Below, in pieces: positions 3,350 to 28,684 of a DNA stretch of 30,332 nt. The stretch covers positions 1 to 30,332 of IMG/VR virus record IMGVR_UViG_3300045051_000608, one strand, 5' to 3'. The notes under the pieces are model-generated. The model was not told the DNA's origin. It searched no databases and saw only the letters and a list, made by a program, of their open reading frames with translations. The DNA is from a virus. Within the stretch, counting starts at the first letter, position 1. Each line of letters starts with the position of its first letter. The position numbers and the translations under genes are program-made.

Positions 3350-4167
3350 TGCCGCCGAGCACGCGGAAGCGCCTCCTCGTCCCCCGACGCGAGCCGGTCC
3401 CCGGGTACACGGCTCGCGTCGGCGTCACCGTCCCGATCGCGGAGGAGCGCGACCGCCTCTTCGTCGCCGGCCTCGACCTCGGCCAGGTCGGCGACGACTC
3501 GGCGCTGGTCGTCGAGGAGGTCTTCGAGCCGGTCGTGGTCGATGGGCGCTCCCTCCCGCTCCGCTTCGAACTCATCTACGCGGAGAGGCATCAGCACCAG
3601 ACCTACCCGTGGCTGGTGCGCCACGTCTGCGACGTGCTCCGGCGCGCGCCGCTCTACGGCAGGACGGTCTTCGCGCTCGACGGCACCGGCGTCGGCCGGC
3701 CCATCGTCCAGATGTTCGTCGAGGCGCGCGCCTGGGCCTTCCCTCCCGGCGGCCGCTGGGTCTACCCGGTGGTGATCACGCCGAGCGGGAAACTCTCCGC
3801 GCACGACGGCTGGCTCCACGTCAGCAAGACGGATCTGGTGGCGGTCGCGCAGCGGGCGCTCCAGCCGGTGACGTGGCCGTGGGGCGAGCGCCTCCCGCGG
3901 CTCCGCTTCGCCGAGCGATTAACCCTCACGCCGATGATCGCCGAGCAGTTCAAGGGCTTCCGGTCCAACGTCGCCAAGGCCGGAAAGATGCTGACCTTCG
4001 AGGCTTGGCACGCGAAGCTCCACGACGACTTCGTGATCGCGCCCAGCATTGCGACGCTGGTGGCCGAGTTGACCACGGCGCGCCGCCTCGCGCCGAGCCC
4101 GGAGTCCCGCGTCCGCTGGACACAGGGTTCACCAGAGGAGCGGCTCCCTCAGCCGCCGATGGCGTAA
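3349..4167 (+). CDS. Terminase large subunit, RNase H-like nuclease part (separate gene)
   Basis: A 272-residue protein carrying the headful or site nuclease of the packaging motor. FVAGLDLGQVGDDSALVV (residues 38-55) is the first RNase H-fold strand with acidic D43. FALDGTGVGRPIVQMF (108-123) carries the second conserved Asp (111). KLHDDFVIA (223-231) is the third acidic cluster, in the HDD form usual for large terminases. These three groups coordinate the two metal ions in the family. No ATP-binding motif is present; that is on the separate gene at 1947. The first 30 residues are basic and have no counterpart I recognise. ATG 3349 overlaps the stop of the preceding gene, suggesting coupled translation. 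Assignment is firm. Confidence 0.85.
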   Translation: MPPSTRKRLLVPRREPVPGYTARVGVTVPIAEERDRLFVAGLDLGQVGDDSALVVEEVFEPVVVDGRSLPLRFELIYAERHQHQTYPWLVRHVCDVLRRAPLYGRTVFALDGTGVGRPIVQMFVEARAWAFPPGGRWVYPVVITPSGKLSAHDGWLHVSKTDLVAVAQRALQPVTWPWGERLPRLRFAERLTLTPMIAEQFKGFRSNVAKAGKMLTFEAWHAKLHDDFVIAPSIATLVAELTTARRLAPSPESRVRWTQGSPEERLPQPPMA

Positions 4168-4176
4168 GCGCGGAAG

Positions 4177-4503
4177 ATGGCGCGCTTCCTCGACGGGCCG
4201 CTCTGCGACACCATCGAGAAGCCGCCGGTGTTCTTCAGGCGCCGGCCGCGCCGGATCTACGTCGGGACGTGCGGCGACGGGCCGGAGCTCTACCCAGAGC
4301 GCGTCGGCCAGGCGTGCGAACTGGTGTGCCTGCGAAAGCGCGCCGATCGCGAGCACCGGCGGATCCCGTACCCGCTCACGGTGGAGTTCGCGGACGGCTT
4401 CCGGGGCATCACGTGCTGGGACGCGCTGCGCGTCGCCGACGTGCCGCCCGAACCGTGGCGCCAGCGCGCGAGCCGGACGCGCCCGGCGCTGGTGCTATCC
4501 TGA
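4177..4503 (+). CDS. Hypothetical protein, 108 aa
   Basis: A basic 108-residue protein with no family that I recognise. It contains four cysteines (CDTI, GTCGDG, GQACELVC) and a conserved-looking core PLTVEFADGFRGITCWDALRV. The Cys residues are not spaced as a clear zinc-finger pair. It starts nine bases after the nuclease gene; GGAAG lies directly before the ATG, closer than ideal. Its last three codons lie in the 19-base repeat at 4491-4509. Codon use matches the flanking genes, which supports it as real. Confidence 0.65.
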   Translation: MARFLDGPLCDTIEKPPVFFRRRPRRIYVGTCGDGPELYPERVGQACELVCLRKRADREHRRIPYPLTVEFADGFRGITCWDALRVADVPPEPWRQRASRTRPALVLS

Positions 4504-4509
4504 TCCGGC
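4491..4509 (+). repeat. 19-base direct repeat, copy 1; candidate regulatory element
   Basis: GGTGCTATCCTGATCCGGC is identical to 29491-29509, 25 kb away. Both copies lie just upstream of a gene encoding a protein with an export signal. TATCCT could act as a -10 element, but no TTGACA-like -35 lies 16-18 bases upstream, so a phage-specific promoter or an operator is equally possible. This copy overlaps the stop codon of the gene at 4177. Confidence 0.5.
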
Positions 4510-4583
4510 GGTGACCAGCAAAAAGCGGACGGCCGGGACAGCGATCGCCACGCGGCGCGCCCGGCGGTCCCCCGGAGGCTCGC

Positions 4584-5438
4584 ATGCGTGACAGCGGACT
4601 CGCCGGCCGATCCCTCGCGGCCTGCGCGGCGATGATCCTGGTCGGCCTGGTCATCAGCACGGCGGTCAAGGACAGCGGCTGCCGGGACCTATCGAGCATG
4701 GCGACGGCCGACTCCGAGGTGGTCCCGCTCTTCTCCGGGCTGACCTACAGCGCCGAGTCCCGCTCCTTCACGATCGCGCCGCAGGGCATGAGCATGAGCG
4801 GCGCGGCGATCACCGTCCAGACGGCCGGCGACTACACCGGGAGTACGACCGTGATGCCGCAGTTCACACTCAACGGGACCACCTGGACGAACCTGTGCGG
4901 CGCGGCGATCCCAGCCGGCGGGTCCTGCGAGGGACTGGCCCGGGAGGCGGCGAACTACCGCATCCACGTCGAACACGAAGGGGCCGGCAAGCTCGTGAGC
5001 GTCGTCGTCGCCGGCCACCTTTGCCGGATCGTGCTCGGCTCGACGGCGACGCCGACCTCGACGAACACGCCGACGGTGACGAACACCCCGACGGCGACGC
5101 CGACCGCCACCGACACCCCGACCGCCACCTCCACGCCTACGAACACCCCGACCCCGACCGCCACGCCGGTGCTCCACGCGCTGACGCTGGACTTCACGAA
5201 CGGCACCGGGAAGAGCATCGCGATCACGGTGGATGCCGTCCCGGGCGCCGCCTGCGACGCGGCCGCCGCGCCGTGCGTCTACCAGGTCCTGGAGGGGGCG
5301 AGCGTCGAGCTCACCGCCACCGCGGGCGGGTTCGCCACGTGGACCGCGAGCGGCGCGGCGGTGAGCTGCGACACGAGCAGCTCGAACGTCTGCGCCTTCA
5401 CCATGACGGCCGCCGGAGCGGCGACGGCGAACTACTAG
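4584..5438 (+). CDS. Exported or membrane-anchored protein with Thr-Pro linker and B-repeat-like domain
   Basis: A 284-residue protein. Residues 10-28 (SLAACAAMILVGLVISTAV) form a hydrophobic export segment with no clear AxA cleavage site, so it may be an uncleaved anchor. A beta-rich domain (about 35-150) carries the cysteines NLCG and GGSCEG. Residues about 153-195 are almost entirely Thr, Pro, Ala and Asn in a TPT pattern, a flexible extracellular linker. The C-terminal domain (about 197-284; AACDAAAAPCVYQ, LTATAGGFATW, SCDTSSSNVCAFTM, AATANY) resembles the divergent InlB B-repeat fold. Paired cysteines fit disulfides formed outside the cytoplasm. GGAGG at 4573-4577 supports ATG 4584. It lies between packaging and portal genes, an odd place for a secreted protein. 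Candidate moron or surface protein; exact role unknown. Confidence 0.8.
   Translation: MRDSGLAGRSLAACAAMILVGLVISTAVKDSGCRDLSSMATADSEVVPLFSGLTYSAESRSFTIAPQGMSMSGAAITVQTAGDYTGSTTVMPQFTLNGTTWTNLCGAAIPAGGSCEGLAREAANYRIHVEHEGAGKLVSVVVAGHLCRIVLGSTATPTSTNTPTVTNTPTATPTATDTPTATSTPTNTPTPTATPVLHALTLDFTNGTGKSIAITVDAVPGAACDAAAAPCVYQVLEGASVELTATAGGFATWTASGAAVSCDTSSSNVCAFTMTAAGAATANY
5044..5166 (+). repeat. Low-complexity Thr-Pro coding repeat
   Basis: An imperfect tandem array of ACG/ACC and CCG/CCC codons encoding a TPT-type linker within the gene at 4584. Units of 6-12 bases vary at third positions, so it is a protein-level repeat and not a recent DNA duplication. Such tracts can change length by slippage. 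Confidence 0.8.
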
Positions 5439-24640: not shown

Positions 24641-26197
24641 GTGAGCGCGGCAGCCTTCTATCTTTCCGACGACGTCACCCTTGCAACCGGACTCACCTTC
24701 TCGCCCGGCACGTCCGGCACTCCGCTCCAGACCGGCGACGAGACAGCAGAGACCGAGCTACACCTCTGGAACACCGCAAGCGTCGGCGGCGCGGAGACCG
24801 GTCCGCTCTCCATCTACGATGTGGTGAAGGACGCGCTCGGCAACTACAAGTCGAGCGGGCTCGATGCTCTTGATGAGGGATGGCTCTGGGCGAAAGAGAT
24901 GTCGTCCTGCGATAGCACGGGCGATGCCTCGTTCTTTGCGAACGAGAGCGAGTGGACGCGGCTCTCGCCCGGCGCGCGGCTGGAAGTCGATTCGATCCCC
25001 GCCGCCTGCGCGCGCTACCTCTCCATCAAGTGGGTGGTGCCGCAGGGCGAGGGGCTCGCGAGCGAGACGGTCGAGTTCGCGCTGCGCCAGATCCACGACG
25101 AGGCGAGCACCACGCTCACGGTCGGCATCGCTAAGGCGTTCTACGGCATCCTGACCGGTGCGGGGCATCGGTCATTCACCGAGTGGATCGACCCGCCGAC
25201 CGTCACCGAGAGCGGCACGCCGGACGACGTGATCAACATCGGGTGGAGCTGGTTCCTCGAGCGCGGCGTGCCGTACTGGATTCCCCCCGGCACGCTCAGC
25301 GGTAACCAGACCGCCGCCGATGGCGCGCTCGGCAGCGGGCAGGAGTACGTCCTCCTCGTCACGCACGGCTGGGGCACGACGACGTACACCGGGACCAAGG
25401 GCAACCGCGCGACGAGCGGGTTGGCCGTGCCGCCCGCGGTGCCGGCCTCGCACTCGGTGGCCGCGGTCGTTCGCGTGGCCTACGGTGCGGGCGGCTCGGT
25501 CATCACGAACGCCGCGATCACGGTCAGGGCGACGCCGGCCCGCTTCAAACCCTACGACGCCGACGGCACGCTGGTCCTAACGGTCGGCCGCGGGTGGGCG
25601 ATGAACGGCGGACTTACCGCGCGGAGCCTCGATGTCTCGCAGATCACGCTCCCCGACGACACGAGCCGGTACGTGTGGCGCACCTCCGGCGGGCTCTACC
25701 TGACGACGACTTTCGTGCCGCCCGCGAAGGGGGACATCCCGATCGCCTACGCGACGACGGCGGGCGGTGTCATCACGAGCATCGAGGATCGCAGGCTGTT
25801 CCTTTCCGACATGGAGCGCGAGATCGCGCTGTTCTTCGACGGCACGGAAACGACGGGTCCACTCGCCGGGATGAAACGGCAGGCGGGACGGAGCCTCGCG
25901 ATCGACCGCATCCGCTTCACGATCGAGGACGCAAGCGGCGGCACCGGCATCACCGTGCTCGACATCAACCGCAAGCGCGCCGGCACCTCCGCCACGATCT
26001 TCCCGAACCAGGCCGGCTCCGTGGAGTCGCGCCCGACCGTCGCCGCCGGCTCGCGCGGCAGCTCCAACGCGATGCCCGAGATCACGCGGCTTCGCGACGA
26101 CGACGTCCTATCCATCGACTGCGACACGGCGACGAGCGACACGAGCGCGGCCGGGCTCGGCGTGACGTTCGTCTGCGTTCCGGTCGCCTACGAATGA
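24641..26197 (+). CDS. Tail-tip / fibre-associated structural protein
   Basis: A 518-residue beta-rich protein starting at GTG 24641, with GAGAGGGGTGAT just upstream. The N-terminal domain (YLSDDVTLATGLTFSPGTSGTPLQTGDETAETELHLWN) resembles beta modules common in uncharacterised tail appendage proteins. The middle (about 180-300) includes NIGWSWFLERGVPYWIPPGTLSGNQTAADGALGSGQEYVLLVTHGWGTT-like strands. The last third has IAYATTAGGVITSIEDRRLF, a motif often seen in phage baseplate and fibre proteins. No enzymatic motif is seen. It is between two fibre-like genes and is probably part of the adsorption apparatus. Confidence 0.6.
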   Translation: MSAAAFYLSDDVTLATGLTFSPGTSGTPLQTGDETAETELHLWNTASVGGAETGPLSIYDVVKDALGNYKSSGLDALDEGWLWAKEMSSCDSTGDASFFANESEWTRLSPGARLEVDSIPAACARYLSIKWVVPQGEGLASETVEFALRQIHDEASTTLTVGIAKAFYGILTGAGHRSFTEWIDPPTVTESGTPDDVINIGWSWFLERGVPYWIPPGTLSGNQTAADGALGSGQEYVLLVTHGWGTTTYTGTKGNRATSGLAVPPAVPASHSVAAVVRVAYGAGGSVITNAAITVRATPARFKPYDADGTLVLTVGRGWAMNGGLTARSLDVSQITLPDDTSRYVWRTSGGLYLTTTFVPPAKGDIPIAYATTAGGVITSIEDRRLFLSDMEREIALFFDGTETTGPLAGMKRQAGRSLAIDRIRFTIEDASGGTGITVLDINRKRAGTSATIFPNQAGSVESRPTVAAGSRGSSNAMPEITRLRDDDVLSIDCDTATSDTSAAGLGVTFVCVPVAYE

Positions 26198-26205
26198 GGG
26201 AATGC

Positions 26206-27759
26206 ATGAAGACCATCGCTCGCGCCTTCTGCCTCGCGGCTGCACTTGGCTCGGCCCTCTTCACGACTTCGGCCTCGGCGCAGTTCACGCCGCGCCGGGT
26301 CACGTTGACGCCGGGCGCGAGCGTGGGGATCGACGCCTCTCTCGGCTCTATCTTCCTGCTGACGCCGGGTCAGGACGAGACGATCACCGTCAGCAATCCA
26401 GGCCTGCGCACGTTCTACGTGTTCGTCACGCAGACCGGCACCAGCCGCACACTCACGTTTTCGACCGGCTTCACCAGCGTCTCGGCCTACGCGACGGGCG
26501 TCGGCGCCGGTGTTTGCTCGCTCGCCTTCCAGGGCACCGGGACGACCGTCCGCGAGGTGGCGGGCTCCTGTAGGCCGCTCTCCCTCGGCGCGCCGGGCGC
26601 GTACCAGGCGAGCGACGCAGACCTCGACGCGCTGGCGGCGCTCTCGACCACGGGCATGCTGGCGCGCATCGGAGCGGCCACCTACGTGCCGCGGACGATC
26701 GCGGGGACGTCGAACGAGATCGCGGTCACGAACGGCGACGGCGTCAGCGGCGCGCCGACCGTTGGCCTCGCGGCCACGATCGACCTCACCGGCAAGACCA
26801 GCACGAAGCCGAACAAGTCCGGGTCTCTCGCGTCGATGCCCGGCTCGTGCACTGCGGGCGAGACGTACTTTTGTACGAGCGGGTGCACTGACGGGCTCCA
26901 GGGTTACGGCTGCGGCTCCGGCCTAACGTTCGTGCTTCAGGGGGATGCCGGCGGAGCGGGGGCGCTCGCGAGCATCAACGGCGAGGGCGGCCCGGCGATC
27001 ACGATCGCGGCGGGCACCACCGGTTCTGACGTCAACGTCGCGACGACGACCAACACGATCACAGTCCACGTGCCGGATGCCGGGGCGGCGGCGCGCGGCG
27101 TCATCACGACCGGCGCGCAGACGATCGCGGGCGCGAAGACCTTCAGCAGCACGATCGTCGGGGCCATCAGCGGCAACGCGGCCACCGTGACCGGGCTCTC
27201 GGTGACGGCCGGAAAAACCGTCACGGCGACCGAAAGTTCGACCGTGGGTGGCCGCATCGCGCAGTACGTGGCCGACGGCACCACCGGCGCGGTGTCCTTC
27301 ACGTCGATCTCGGCGGCATTCACCAACCTGGAGGTTCGTTGGTCCGCACGAGACACGAAGACCGCCAATTCCCAGCTCATAGCGGTGAGGCTCAACAACG
27401 ACACGACGAGCGGCAACTATACAGGCGGCAGGTACATCACATCGGGCGGAACGGTGCTCACCGGGGCCAACGGGAACGGGTGCAGCGGCGGAATCATCAT
27501 CGCGGAGATTCCCGCGGCCTCGACCACGGCGAACTACTTTTCCGACGGCATCTTCTCCATCAACAACTACACGTCCACGTCTGGTTTCAAGACGGTCATC
27601 TTTCACGGCGCTGGCACAACTACCGCCACGCCGACCGAAACAGAGACCGTCGCGAACTTCCGATGGAAGTCCACGGCGGCCGTCAGCCGAATCGACATCT
27701 GCACCGACGGGACCAACTTCGCCACCGGATCGGTGTTCACTCTCTACGGGATGCCGTGA
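26206..27759 (+). CDS. Tail fibre-like protein with Sec signal peptide
   Basis: A 517-residue protein. The start is ATG 26206, with GAGGGAA upstream. Residues 1-25 are a textbook signal peptide: basic start (MKTIARAF), a hydrophobic core and ASA/QF cleavage after Ala 25. Residues about 38-109 resemble the duplicated module of the gene at 22872. Fibre-type motifs follow: YQASDADLDALAALSTTGMLA, then IAGTSNEIAVTNGDGVSGAP and GAQTIAGAKTFSSTIVG. A Cys cluster (GSCTAGETYFCTSGCTDGLQ and GYGC, about 211-233) is a module known from fibre-like and secreted repeat proteins. The C-terminal domain (about 362-517) has the VSFTSISAAFTNLEVRWSARD pattern of receptor-binding heads. A normal tail fibre is assembled in the cytoplasm, so a cleavable signal is unexpected. 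It could instead be a secreted surface protein. Confidence 0.8.
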   Translation: MKTIARAFCLAAALGSALFTTSASAQFTPRRVTLTPGASVGIDASLGSIFLLTPGQDETITVSNPGLRTFYVFVTQTGTSRTLTFSTGFTSVSAYATGVGAGVCSLAFQGTGTTVREVAGSCRPLSLGAPGAYQASDADLDALAALSTTGMLARIGAATYVPRTIAGTSNEIAVTNGDGVSGAPTVGLAATIDLTGKTSTKPNKSGSLASMPGSCTAGETYFCTSGCTDGLQGYGCGSGLTFVLQGDAGGAGALASINGEGGPAITIAAGTTGSDVNVATTTNTITVHVPDAGAAARGVITTGAQTIAGAKTFSSTIVGAISGNAATVTGLSVTAGKTVTATESSTVGGRIAQYVADGTTGAVSFTSISAAFTNLEVRWSARDTKTANSQLIAVRLNNDTTSGNYTGGRYITSGGTVLTGANGNGCSGGIIIAEIPAASTTANYFSDGIFSINNYTSTSGFKTVIFHGAGTTTATPTETETVANFRWKSTAAVSRIDICTDGTNFATGSVFTLYGMP

Positions 27760-27838: not shown

Positions 27839-28684
27839 GTGTCGCACCGCTGGATCGGGCGAGCCGTGGCTCTCGGCGTGGGTCTTCTCACGCTCGCGCT
27901 CGCTGAGGGCGCGCTTCGGGCAACGCAGGGCCTCCGCAACGATCCGAGCTACAGGTACGACGCGCGGCTCGGCTGGTCGCCGCGTCCTGGCTTCGTCGGC
28001 CGATCGGACGGCACGACGGTCACGATCACGCCCGACGGCTGGCGCAGCAACGGGCTGGTGGCGCCCGTCCTCGCCGTCGGCGATAGCTTCACGTTCGGCA
28101 CCGACGTTCTAGACCAAGAGACGTGGCCGGCGCAGCTCGAGCGCCTGATCGGGCGGCCGGTCATCAACGGCGGCGTGGGCGGCTACGGCCTCGACCAGGC
28201 GGTGCTGCGCGCCGAGGATCTGGTGGCGCGGCTGCACCCGTCGCTGCTGATCGTGGCGTTCATCCCGGACGACGCCGACCGCTGCGGGCTGCGGGAGCGT
28301 GCGGACGCGAAGCCCTGGTTCACCGCCTCCGGCGACCTTCGCGGCGTGCCGGTGCCGCGTCCGCTGGAGCTGCTGCGCCTGGGGCGGCGCGCTGCGGGCT
28401 GGCGGCCTGCGCCCAGCGGCGAGGACGCCGCTGCCGTCTCGCGCCTCTTGGCGGCCCGCGTGGGGCGCCTGGGCGTGCCGTGGGTAGCGCTGGCTCTCGG
28501 GCACCCGGGGAGCGCCACGGCGCCGGCTGAGCCCTTCCTAAAAGGTGCGCGGCGGGCCGGGGCGCGGGTCGTCGATCTGCGGCAGGAGTTGGACCGGTCG
28601 CCTCGGCTGTTCACCCGGACGATGCACCCGGATCGGCGCGGCCAAGAACTGATCGCCCGGGCCGTCGCCGAGGCGCTGCCATGA
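27839..28684 (+). CDS. SGNH/GDSL-type hydrolase with N-terminal membrane anchor
   Basis: A 281-residue protein. Residues 8-25 (RAVALGVGLLTLALAEGA) are a hydrophobic anchor or signal. VLAVGDSFTFG (about 77-87) is block I with the nucleophilic Ser. NGGVGGYGLDQAVL is block II. LLIVAFIPDDADRCG and DAKPWF match the 'PDD..R' and 'KPWF' patterns of one SGNH clade found with surface polysaccharide genes. The last block is TMHPDRRGQELIA, where the His is present but the usual Asp three residues before it is Arg, so catalysis may use a Ser-His pair. Family members remove or transfer acyl groups. A role in altering the host surface, or in virion-receptor trimming, is inference. GTG 27839 lacks a well placed binding site; the frame is open back to 27770, so the start is uncertain. 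Confidence 0.75.
   Translation: MSHRWIGRAVALGVGLLTLALAEGALRATQGLRNDPSYRYDARLGWSPRPGFVGRSDGTTVTITPDGWRSNGLVAPVLAVGDSFTFGTDVLDQETWPAQLERLIGRPVINGGVGGYGLDQAVLRAEDLVARLHPSLLIVAFIPDDADRCGLRERADAKPWFTASGDLRGVPVPRPLELLRLGRRAAGWRPAPSGEDAAAVSRLLAARVGRLGVPWVALALGHPGSATAPAEPFLKGARRAGARVVDLRQELDRSPRLFTRTMHPDRRGQELIARAVAEALP

Follow-up and report, generated by a model that had tools for sequence, protein, structure and literature searches.

Gene context and start codon

The window, the whole stretch of DNA analysed here, comprises all 30,332 bases of the IMG/VR virus record IMGVR_UViG_3300045051_000608. Its genes run from a methyltransferase through the terminase large subunit, the portal and the major head protein to an ORF of 1100 aa that has the position and size of a tape-measure gene, and then, downstream of this ORF, to the tail-gene block that leads up to P0001. 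P0001, a fibre-like protein of 517 aa with a predicted export signal, is encoded at 26206 to 27759 (stop included) on the plus strand, and its ORF, frame and coordinates were confirmed. The last tail gene ends at 26197 and P0001 starts 8 nt further on, on the same strand, right after the tail module. This preceding gene (24641 to 26197, plus strand, 518 aa) has no signal and, from its position, probably encodes a tail or fibre protein made in the cytoplasm. Downstream of P0001 lies an SGNH/GDSL hydrolase gene (27839 to 28684, plus strand; Pfam Lipase_GDSL_2), whose product has a hydrophobic N-terminus that may be a signal or an anchor, its start being uncertain. It sits between P0001 and a second fibre-like gene, P0004 (29533 to 30332, plus strand), which is cut off by the contig end. 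No promoter-like site was found between 24500 and the end of the contig, and no relatives of the hydrolase were found in phage records. Single-query searches of IMG/VR with P0001, a 758-aa tail gene and the major head protein also returned no relatives.

We find it extremely improbable that the start of P0001 was mis-chosen and that the true protein begins downstream of its hydrophobic segment. In-frame TTG and GTG codons are present at 26305 (residue 34, the next in-frame start after 26206) and 26323, but neither is accompanied by a Shine-Dalgarno site. A gene caller based on codon use and Shine-Dalgarno sites, both learned from the record itself, picked the ATG at 26206 unprompted, and GAGGGA precedes this codon in the translation start region (26193 to 26205, plus strand). 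Codon use in the 75 nt coding for the signal is gene-like in the P0001 frame alone, with a score of +0.23 versus -1.09 and -0.19 for the alternative frames; upstream of the start, the P0001 frame scores -0.74. The sole other plausible start is the in-frame ATG at 26194, which overlaps the upstream stop TGA at 26195-26197 (ATGA); it has no Shine-Dalgarno site, and its use would add four residues and retain the signal. Coding bias and Shine-Dalgarno evidence both favour 26206, and the hydrophobic N-terminus is not the product of a wrong start.

Predicted signal peptide

The initial annotation had proposed a cleavable Sec signal with a cut at ASA/QF, and our prediction agrees with it. The putative signal peptide (MKTIARAFCLAAALGSALFTTSASA; 26206 to 26280, plus strand), identified with a home-made predictor and codon use, has the basic n-region MKTIAR, an uncharged hydrophobic h-region and an A-S-A c-region followed by QF, as in Sec (SPI) signals that end in an A-x-A cut and have no lipobox. 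We rejected P0001 as a lipoprotein, there being no lipobox at C9, and as a Tat substrate, there being no twin arginine. The scorer, which is not SignalP, was built from 28 known E. coli signals. It favours a cut after residue 25 and rates P0001 at 9.6, a little below the lowest of these 28 training signals (10.4-17.1). Only 1.8% of shuffles of the protein's own N-terminus reach this score. However, in the survey loci described below a score of at least 7 is reached by about 8% of all called genes, so the score alone is not decisive, and it is the comparative evidence that decides for the predicted signal. Elsewhere in the window, a 284-aa protein encoded between the terminase and portal genes (4584-5438) has a hydrophobic N-terminus (score 7.8) and nine cysteines; it weakly matches PHROG 15511, a family of unknown function.

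In ordinary tailed phages, fibre synthesis and assembly take place in the cytoplasm, and the fibres lack a signal peptide. P0001 resembles side tail fibres of the lambda Stf and T4 long-fibre type in gene position, modular make-up and a receptor-binding type C-terminus, but differs from them in its predicted signal peptide, and it is therefore better described as a variant than as an ordinary tail fibre.

Fibre modules and cysteines

Behind the predicted signal, mature P0001 is a mosaic of fibre-type modules with eight cysteines (C104, C122, C215, C223, C227, C236, C426 and C499); a further one, C9, lies in the signal. The first mature region (aa 26-125; 26281 to 26580, plus strand) holds C104 and C122 and has no significant relative; a comparison of this domain with phage records gave no match. 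It is followed by a fibre motif of PHROG 697 (aa 133-209; 26602 to 26832, plus strand; E = 1.4e-11), within which the 42 residues 149-190 share 62% identity by tblastn with a tail fibre of Bradyrhizobium phage ppBdUSDA122-1. A cysteine-rich block had been placed at about residues 211-233. The cluster is present, with C215, C223, C227 and C236 in a CTAGETYF...YGC module (26848 to 26913, plus strand), and its extent of 215-236 is close to the range first given. Further on, a BppL_N-like fibre stretch (aa 299-316; 27100 to 27153, plus strand; E = 5.6e-5) reaches 23.0 bits and just misses the Pfam cut-off of 25.8.

The C-terminal region (aa 351-516; 27256 to 27753, plus strand) is shared at 27% identity with gp30 of Streptomyces phage LazerLemon, a protein that has no signal. 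An alignment of this C-terminal pair used as a query found no relatives, and a sequence search of the PDB gave no match. An AlphaFold model of aa 345-517, made without an alignment, is all-beta but has a mean pLDDT of 46, too weak for use. The PHROG 697 match, the tblastn matches to tail fibres and the BppL_N stretch below cut-off bear out the view that P0001 is fibre-like.

Fibres with predicted export in other phages

P0001 is not a one-off as a fibre with a predicted signal, as is seen from P0004 in the same window and from other phages. The predicted signal of P0004 (MKRSLLALLVVLASHQAAA/QW, with AGGAGG before the ATG) scores 13.1 with the home-made scorer. The protein has cysteines at C47/C67 and C178/C192, and its fibre motif (TPSSANLAAAVTDETGSGALVFGTSPTF) has 75% identity over 44 aa to fibres on other IMG/VR contigs.

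The nearest named relative of the P0001 fibre motif, WAX24263.1 of ppBdUSDA122-1, begins MKLQRLLGAIGAVVMSVSTALA/AEQ. Related phage fibres thus do carry signals of their own. The gene before it, WAX24264.1, is likewise signal-bearing, and no fibre candidates other than these two follow the tail-tip gene of this phage, whose siphovirions have been seen by TEM (PMC10127595). Both proteins are like P0001 in having a signal before a fibre with the TNGDGVSGNPT motif, cysteine pairs, and a place after the tail genes with an envelope-modifying enzyme gene alongside. WAX24263.1 is much longer than P0001, has another N-terminal module and contains a phage tail collar domain (PF07484). The record makes no comment on its export signal, and a word search of the phage's paper found no mention of one. 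The enzyme that adjoins the exported fibres of ppBdUSDA122-1 is an acyltransferase encoded on the opposite strand (4167-5291 of locus L188), an envelope-modifying enzyme as in the window.

To compare fibres with and without signals, we used an N-terminal module of Bradyrhizobium fibres, found at 67 loci with 41 distinct sequences over the first 60 residues; this module family differs from the module at the N-terminus of P0001 itself. All ten distinct signal-bearing members have exactly two cysteines in the first 75 mature residues, versus none of the 31 signal-less members, one of which has a single cysteine (Fisher 9e-10, relatedness ignored). Most of the signal-less members form one marine group, and those from outside it (Rhizobium phage RHph_TM16 and loci L219, L254 and L255) also have no cysteine pair. 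The second cysteine is placed before or after a conserved Trp, and one member (L195) has an altogether different pair, which suggests that the pairs were gained repeatedly. In signal-bearing members 35-40 residues separate the module from the predicted mature N-terminus, versus 33-40 from Met1 in the signal-less fibres, and the match in these distances indicates that the signal was placed ahead of an already complete fibre. The test supports real export and disulphides, and the association agrees with the earlier proposal that the cysteines would form disulphides only after export. It argues against a wrong start and against a mere virion anchor.

In that last alternative, the hydrophobic N-terminus would plug the fibre into the virion and nothing would be exported, as might be suggested by the similar short hydrophobic N-termini found on several fibres of one phage (loci L007 and L119). 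We consider it very improbable, because the hydrophobic segment and the cysteine pairs co-occur perfectly in homologous modules, because signals with predicted A-x-A-type c-regions are found on fibres from many unrelated contigs, and because similar N-termini occur on small exported-looking proteins of the same phages. In these two loci, whole tail-end gene runs (L119, 1-10523; L007, 4513-13748) have short Acidobacteria-like signals, and one of the genes (L007, 4513-7110) encodes a spike-like protein with 15 cysteines.

On the evidence of two sequence surveys, a signal on a fibre is a minority trait. Among 80 IMG/VR fibre genes with the P0001 motif, 13 (about 16%) look signal-bearing, 11 of them by the automatic threshold of 6, and with the P0004 motif the count is 2 of 71. 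We dropped the idea that signals are enriched in fibres overall, as 9 of the 80 fibres score at least 7, compared with 8% of all genes. What appears non-random is the link of the signals with cysteine pairs and their exact placement. Cysteine density is about three times higher in fibre genes with a signal (0.85 versus 0.28 per 100 aa, p = 0.0035), in groups that were partly assigned by eye and include two near-identical Bradyrhizobium entries.

A DNA pattern for D-A-x-x-G-Q-N-x-Y-x-C, which represents the P0001-like cysteine module, matched 24 contigs. Where the 5' end is complete, 16 of 20 contigs have an in-frame start with a signal score above 6; these scores are somewhat generous because the best over all starts was taken, and some contigs are near-duplicates. 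The remaining four look signal- or anchor-like by eye. Many of the contigs carry runs of two to six consecutive long, cysteine-rich genes with predicted export, and some runs adjoin terminase, portal and head genes (L257, L272). A recognisable terminase is present in 15 of 20 records with exported fibres, which therefore appear to be phages and not stray host DNA. Exported phage fibres are apparently a recurring and undescribed set; a literature search that omitted most subscription journals and preprints turned up no paper reporting tail fibres with Sec signals.

Related exported proteins in cellular genomes

The fibre motif is also present in signal-bearing proteins encoded by contigs from Pedobacter and other Bacteroidota. 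In four Pedobacter loci (L090, L091, L093, L101) the proteins are conserved, reach about 1,500 aa or more and combine a signal peptide with this motif. In Paludibaculum fermentans, a member of the Acidobacteriota, plasmid pPfer1 (L284, 19046-27599) encodes three consecutive exported proteins within a polysaccharide biosynthesis locus, and the first of these proteins holds the fibre-type cysteine module. A known precedent for exported fibres, cellular and not phage, is given by the mosaic adhesive trimer (MAT) fibres of Bdellovibrio, which are signal-bearing, phage-fibre-like surface proteins that recognise prey (PMC10769870). Like P0001, they combine a signal peptide with phage-fibre-like modules behind it, in their case with varied binding tips (PMC10769870). 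Unlike P0001, they have a conserved domain of about 130 aa after the signal (NF053851, Bdello_MAT_N), to which P0001 has no NCBIfam match, and 13 of 21 MAT fibres end in an S74 domain (PMC10769870), which is absent from P0001.

These proteins raise the alternative that P0001 is a host-type surface adhesin, comparable to the MAT and Pedobacter proteins, that the phage has captured or carries for lysogenic conversion. The reading stays alive because the same modules occur in exported cellular proteins: besides the fibre-motif proteins with signals in Pedobacter and other Bacteroidota, one of which matches Bdello_MAT_N below cut-off and Pfam Phage_fiber_rpt above cut-off, the Paludibaculum plasmid has its three such genes in a polysaccharide locus. 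The similar cysteine module in these pPfer1 proteins, in a setting that is not phage, also counts against a virion fibre. We nevertheless rate the adhesin as quite unlikely and rank it third, since the P0001 gene is closely set within the run of tail genes and lacks a separate promoter-like site, and since a search for Bdello_MAT_N gave no match in the window or in 22 other records, although the model, which matched no control genome either, may lack sensitivity.

Discussion

The sequence of P0001 contains fibre modules and a predicted signal, and its gene stands directly after the tail genes; comparison with other phages makes export and disulphides well supported. P0001 is very probably an exported fibre-type protein. 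The reading that we prefer for its function, with a probability of about 0.42 for the whole statement, is that of a late Sec-exported receptor-binding fibre that most likely joins virions at lysis. P0001 would be a late-expressed receptor-binding protein of the tail-fibre type, exported by the Sec pathway and cut after Ala25. The mature protein would trimerise and form disulphides in the periplasm or outside the cell, and it would join virions, as the equivalent of a side fibre, when lysis mixes tails with the periplasm. In T4, fibres attach to fibreless particles in mixed lysates.

The initial annotation had offered display on the host cell, joining of the virion outside the cytoplasm and capture of a host surface protein as meanings, among which sequence alone does not decide. 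We favour this late virion-joining fibre because whole fibres with intact N-termini are kept and because the genes directly follow the tail genes; this co-linearity, with an intact fibre N-terminus behind the signal, makes us lean towards a virion-derived fibre. Nevertheless, P0001 may not be needed in the virion, because the gene just upstream (24641-26197) encodes a signal-less candidate for a tail or fibre protein.

Nearly as likely as the virion-joining fibre, and rather unlikely taken by itself, is that P0001 blocks or destroys receptors. After export the fibre would remain with the producing cell, in its periplasm or on its surface, where it would bind the receptor or alter it together with the neighbouring SGNH hydrolase, and so block superinfection or keep progeny off debris, a fibre-built equivalent in effect of Cor and Llp. 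Cor of phi80 and Llp of T5 are exported phage envelope proteins of the beta-barrel or lipoprotein type, not fibres. This reading gains from the envelope-modifying enzymes that adjoin the fibres (the SGNH hydrolase here and the acyltransferase in ppBdUSDA122-1), from pectate-lyase-like proteins in some exported cassettes (L256, and by eye L007 4513-7110), and from Lom of lambda, an outer-membrane protein that is exported and whose gene lies between tail genes (PMC12309495). Lom, Cor and Llp are like P0001 in being phage-encoded and exported, Lom also in its place among tail genes (PMC12309495), but they are beta-barrel or lipoproteins and have no fibre motifs. A pure blocker would have no need of the whole fibres with an intact N-terminal module that are kept here, and late co-expression with tail genes fits late exclusion, not protection during lysogeny. 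The tail proteins PblA and PblB of Streptococcus phage SM1 have no signal peptide and come to lie on the host surface via lysis-related permeabilisation. They would share a host-surface fate with P0001, and they differ from it in the signal.

Tailed-phage assembly is taught as wholly cytoplasmic. We tentatively suggest, as a possibility somewhat less probable than our reading of P0001 itself, that in many environmental tailed phages the receptor-binding fibres and spikes are Sec-exported and disulphide-stapled in the periplasm and that virions are completed outside the cytoplasm at lysis, P0001 and P0004 being examples from one phage. Exported fibres raise the question of their site of action or of attachment to the virion. 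If they are used in the virion, the last assembly step would shift to lysis, fibre trimers would form with the help of disulphides and of folding factors in the periplasm, and annotation pipelines built around cytoplasmic fibres would assign wrong labels to these genes. If the producing cell is instead their target, phages would have turned receptor-binding proteins into secreted tools for use against rivals or to counter re-adsorption. In both cases the trait can be tested in a culturable phage, ppBdUSDA122-1 of Bradyrhizobium diazoefficiens.
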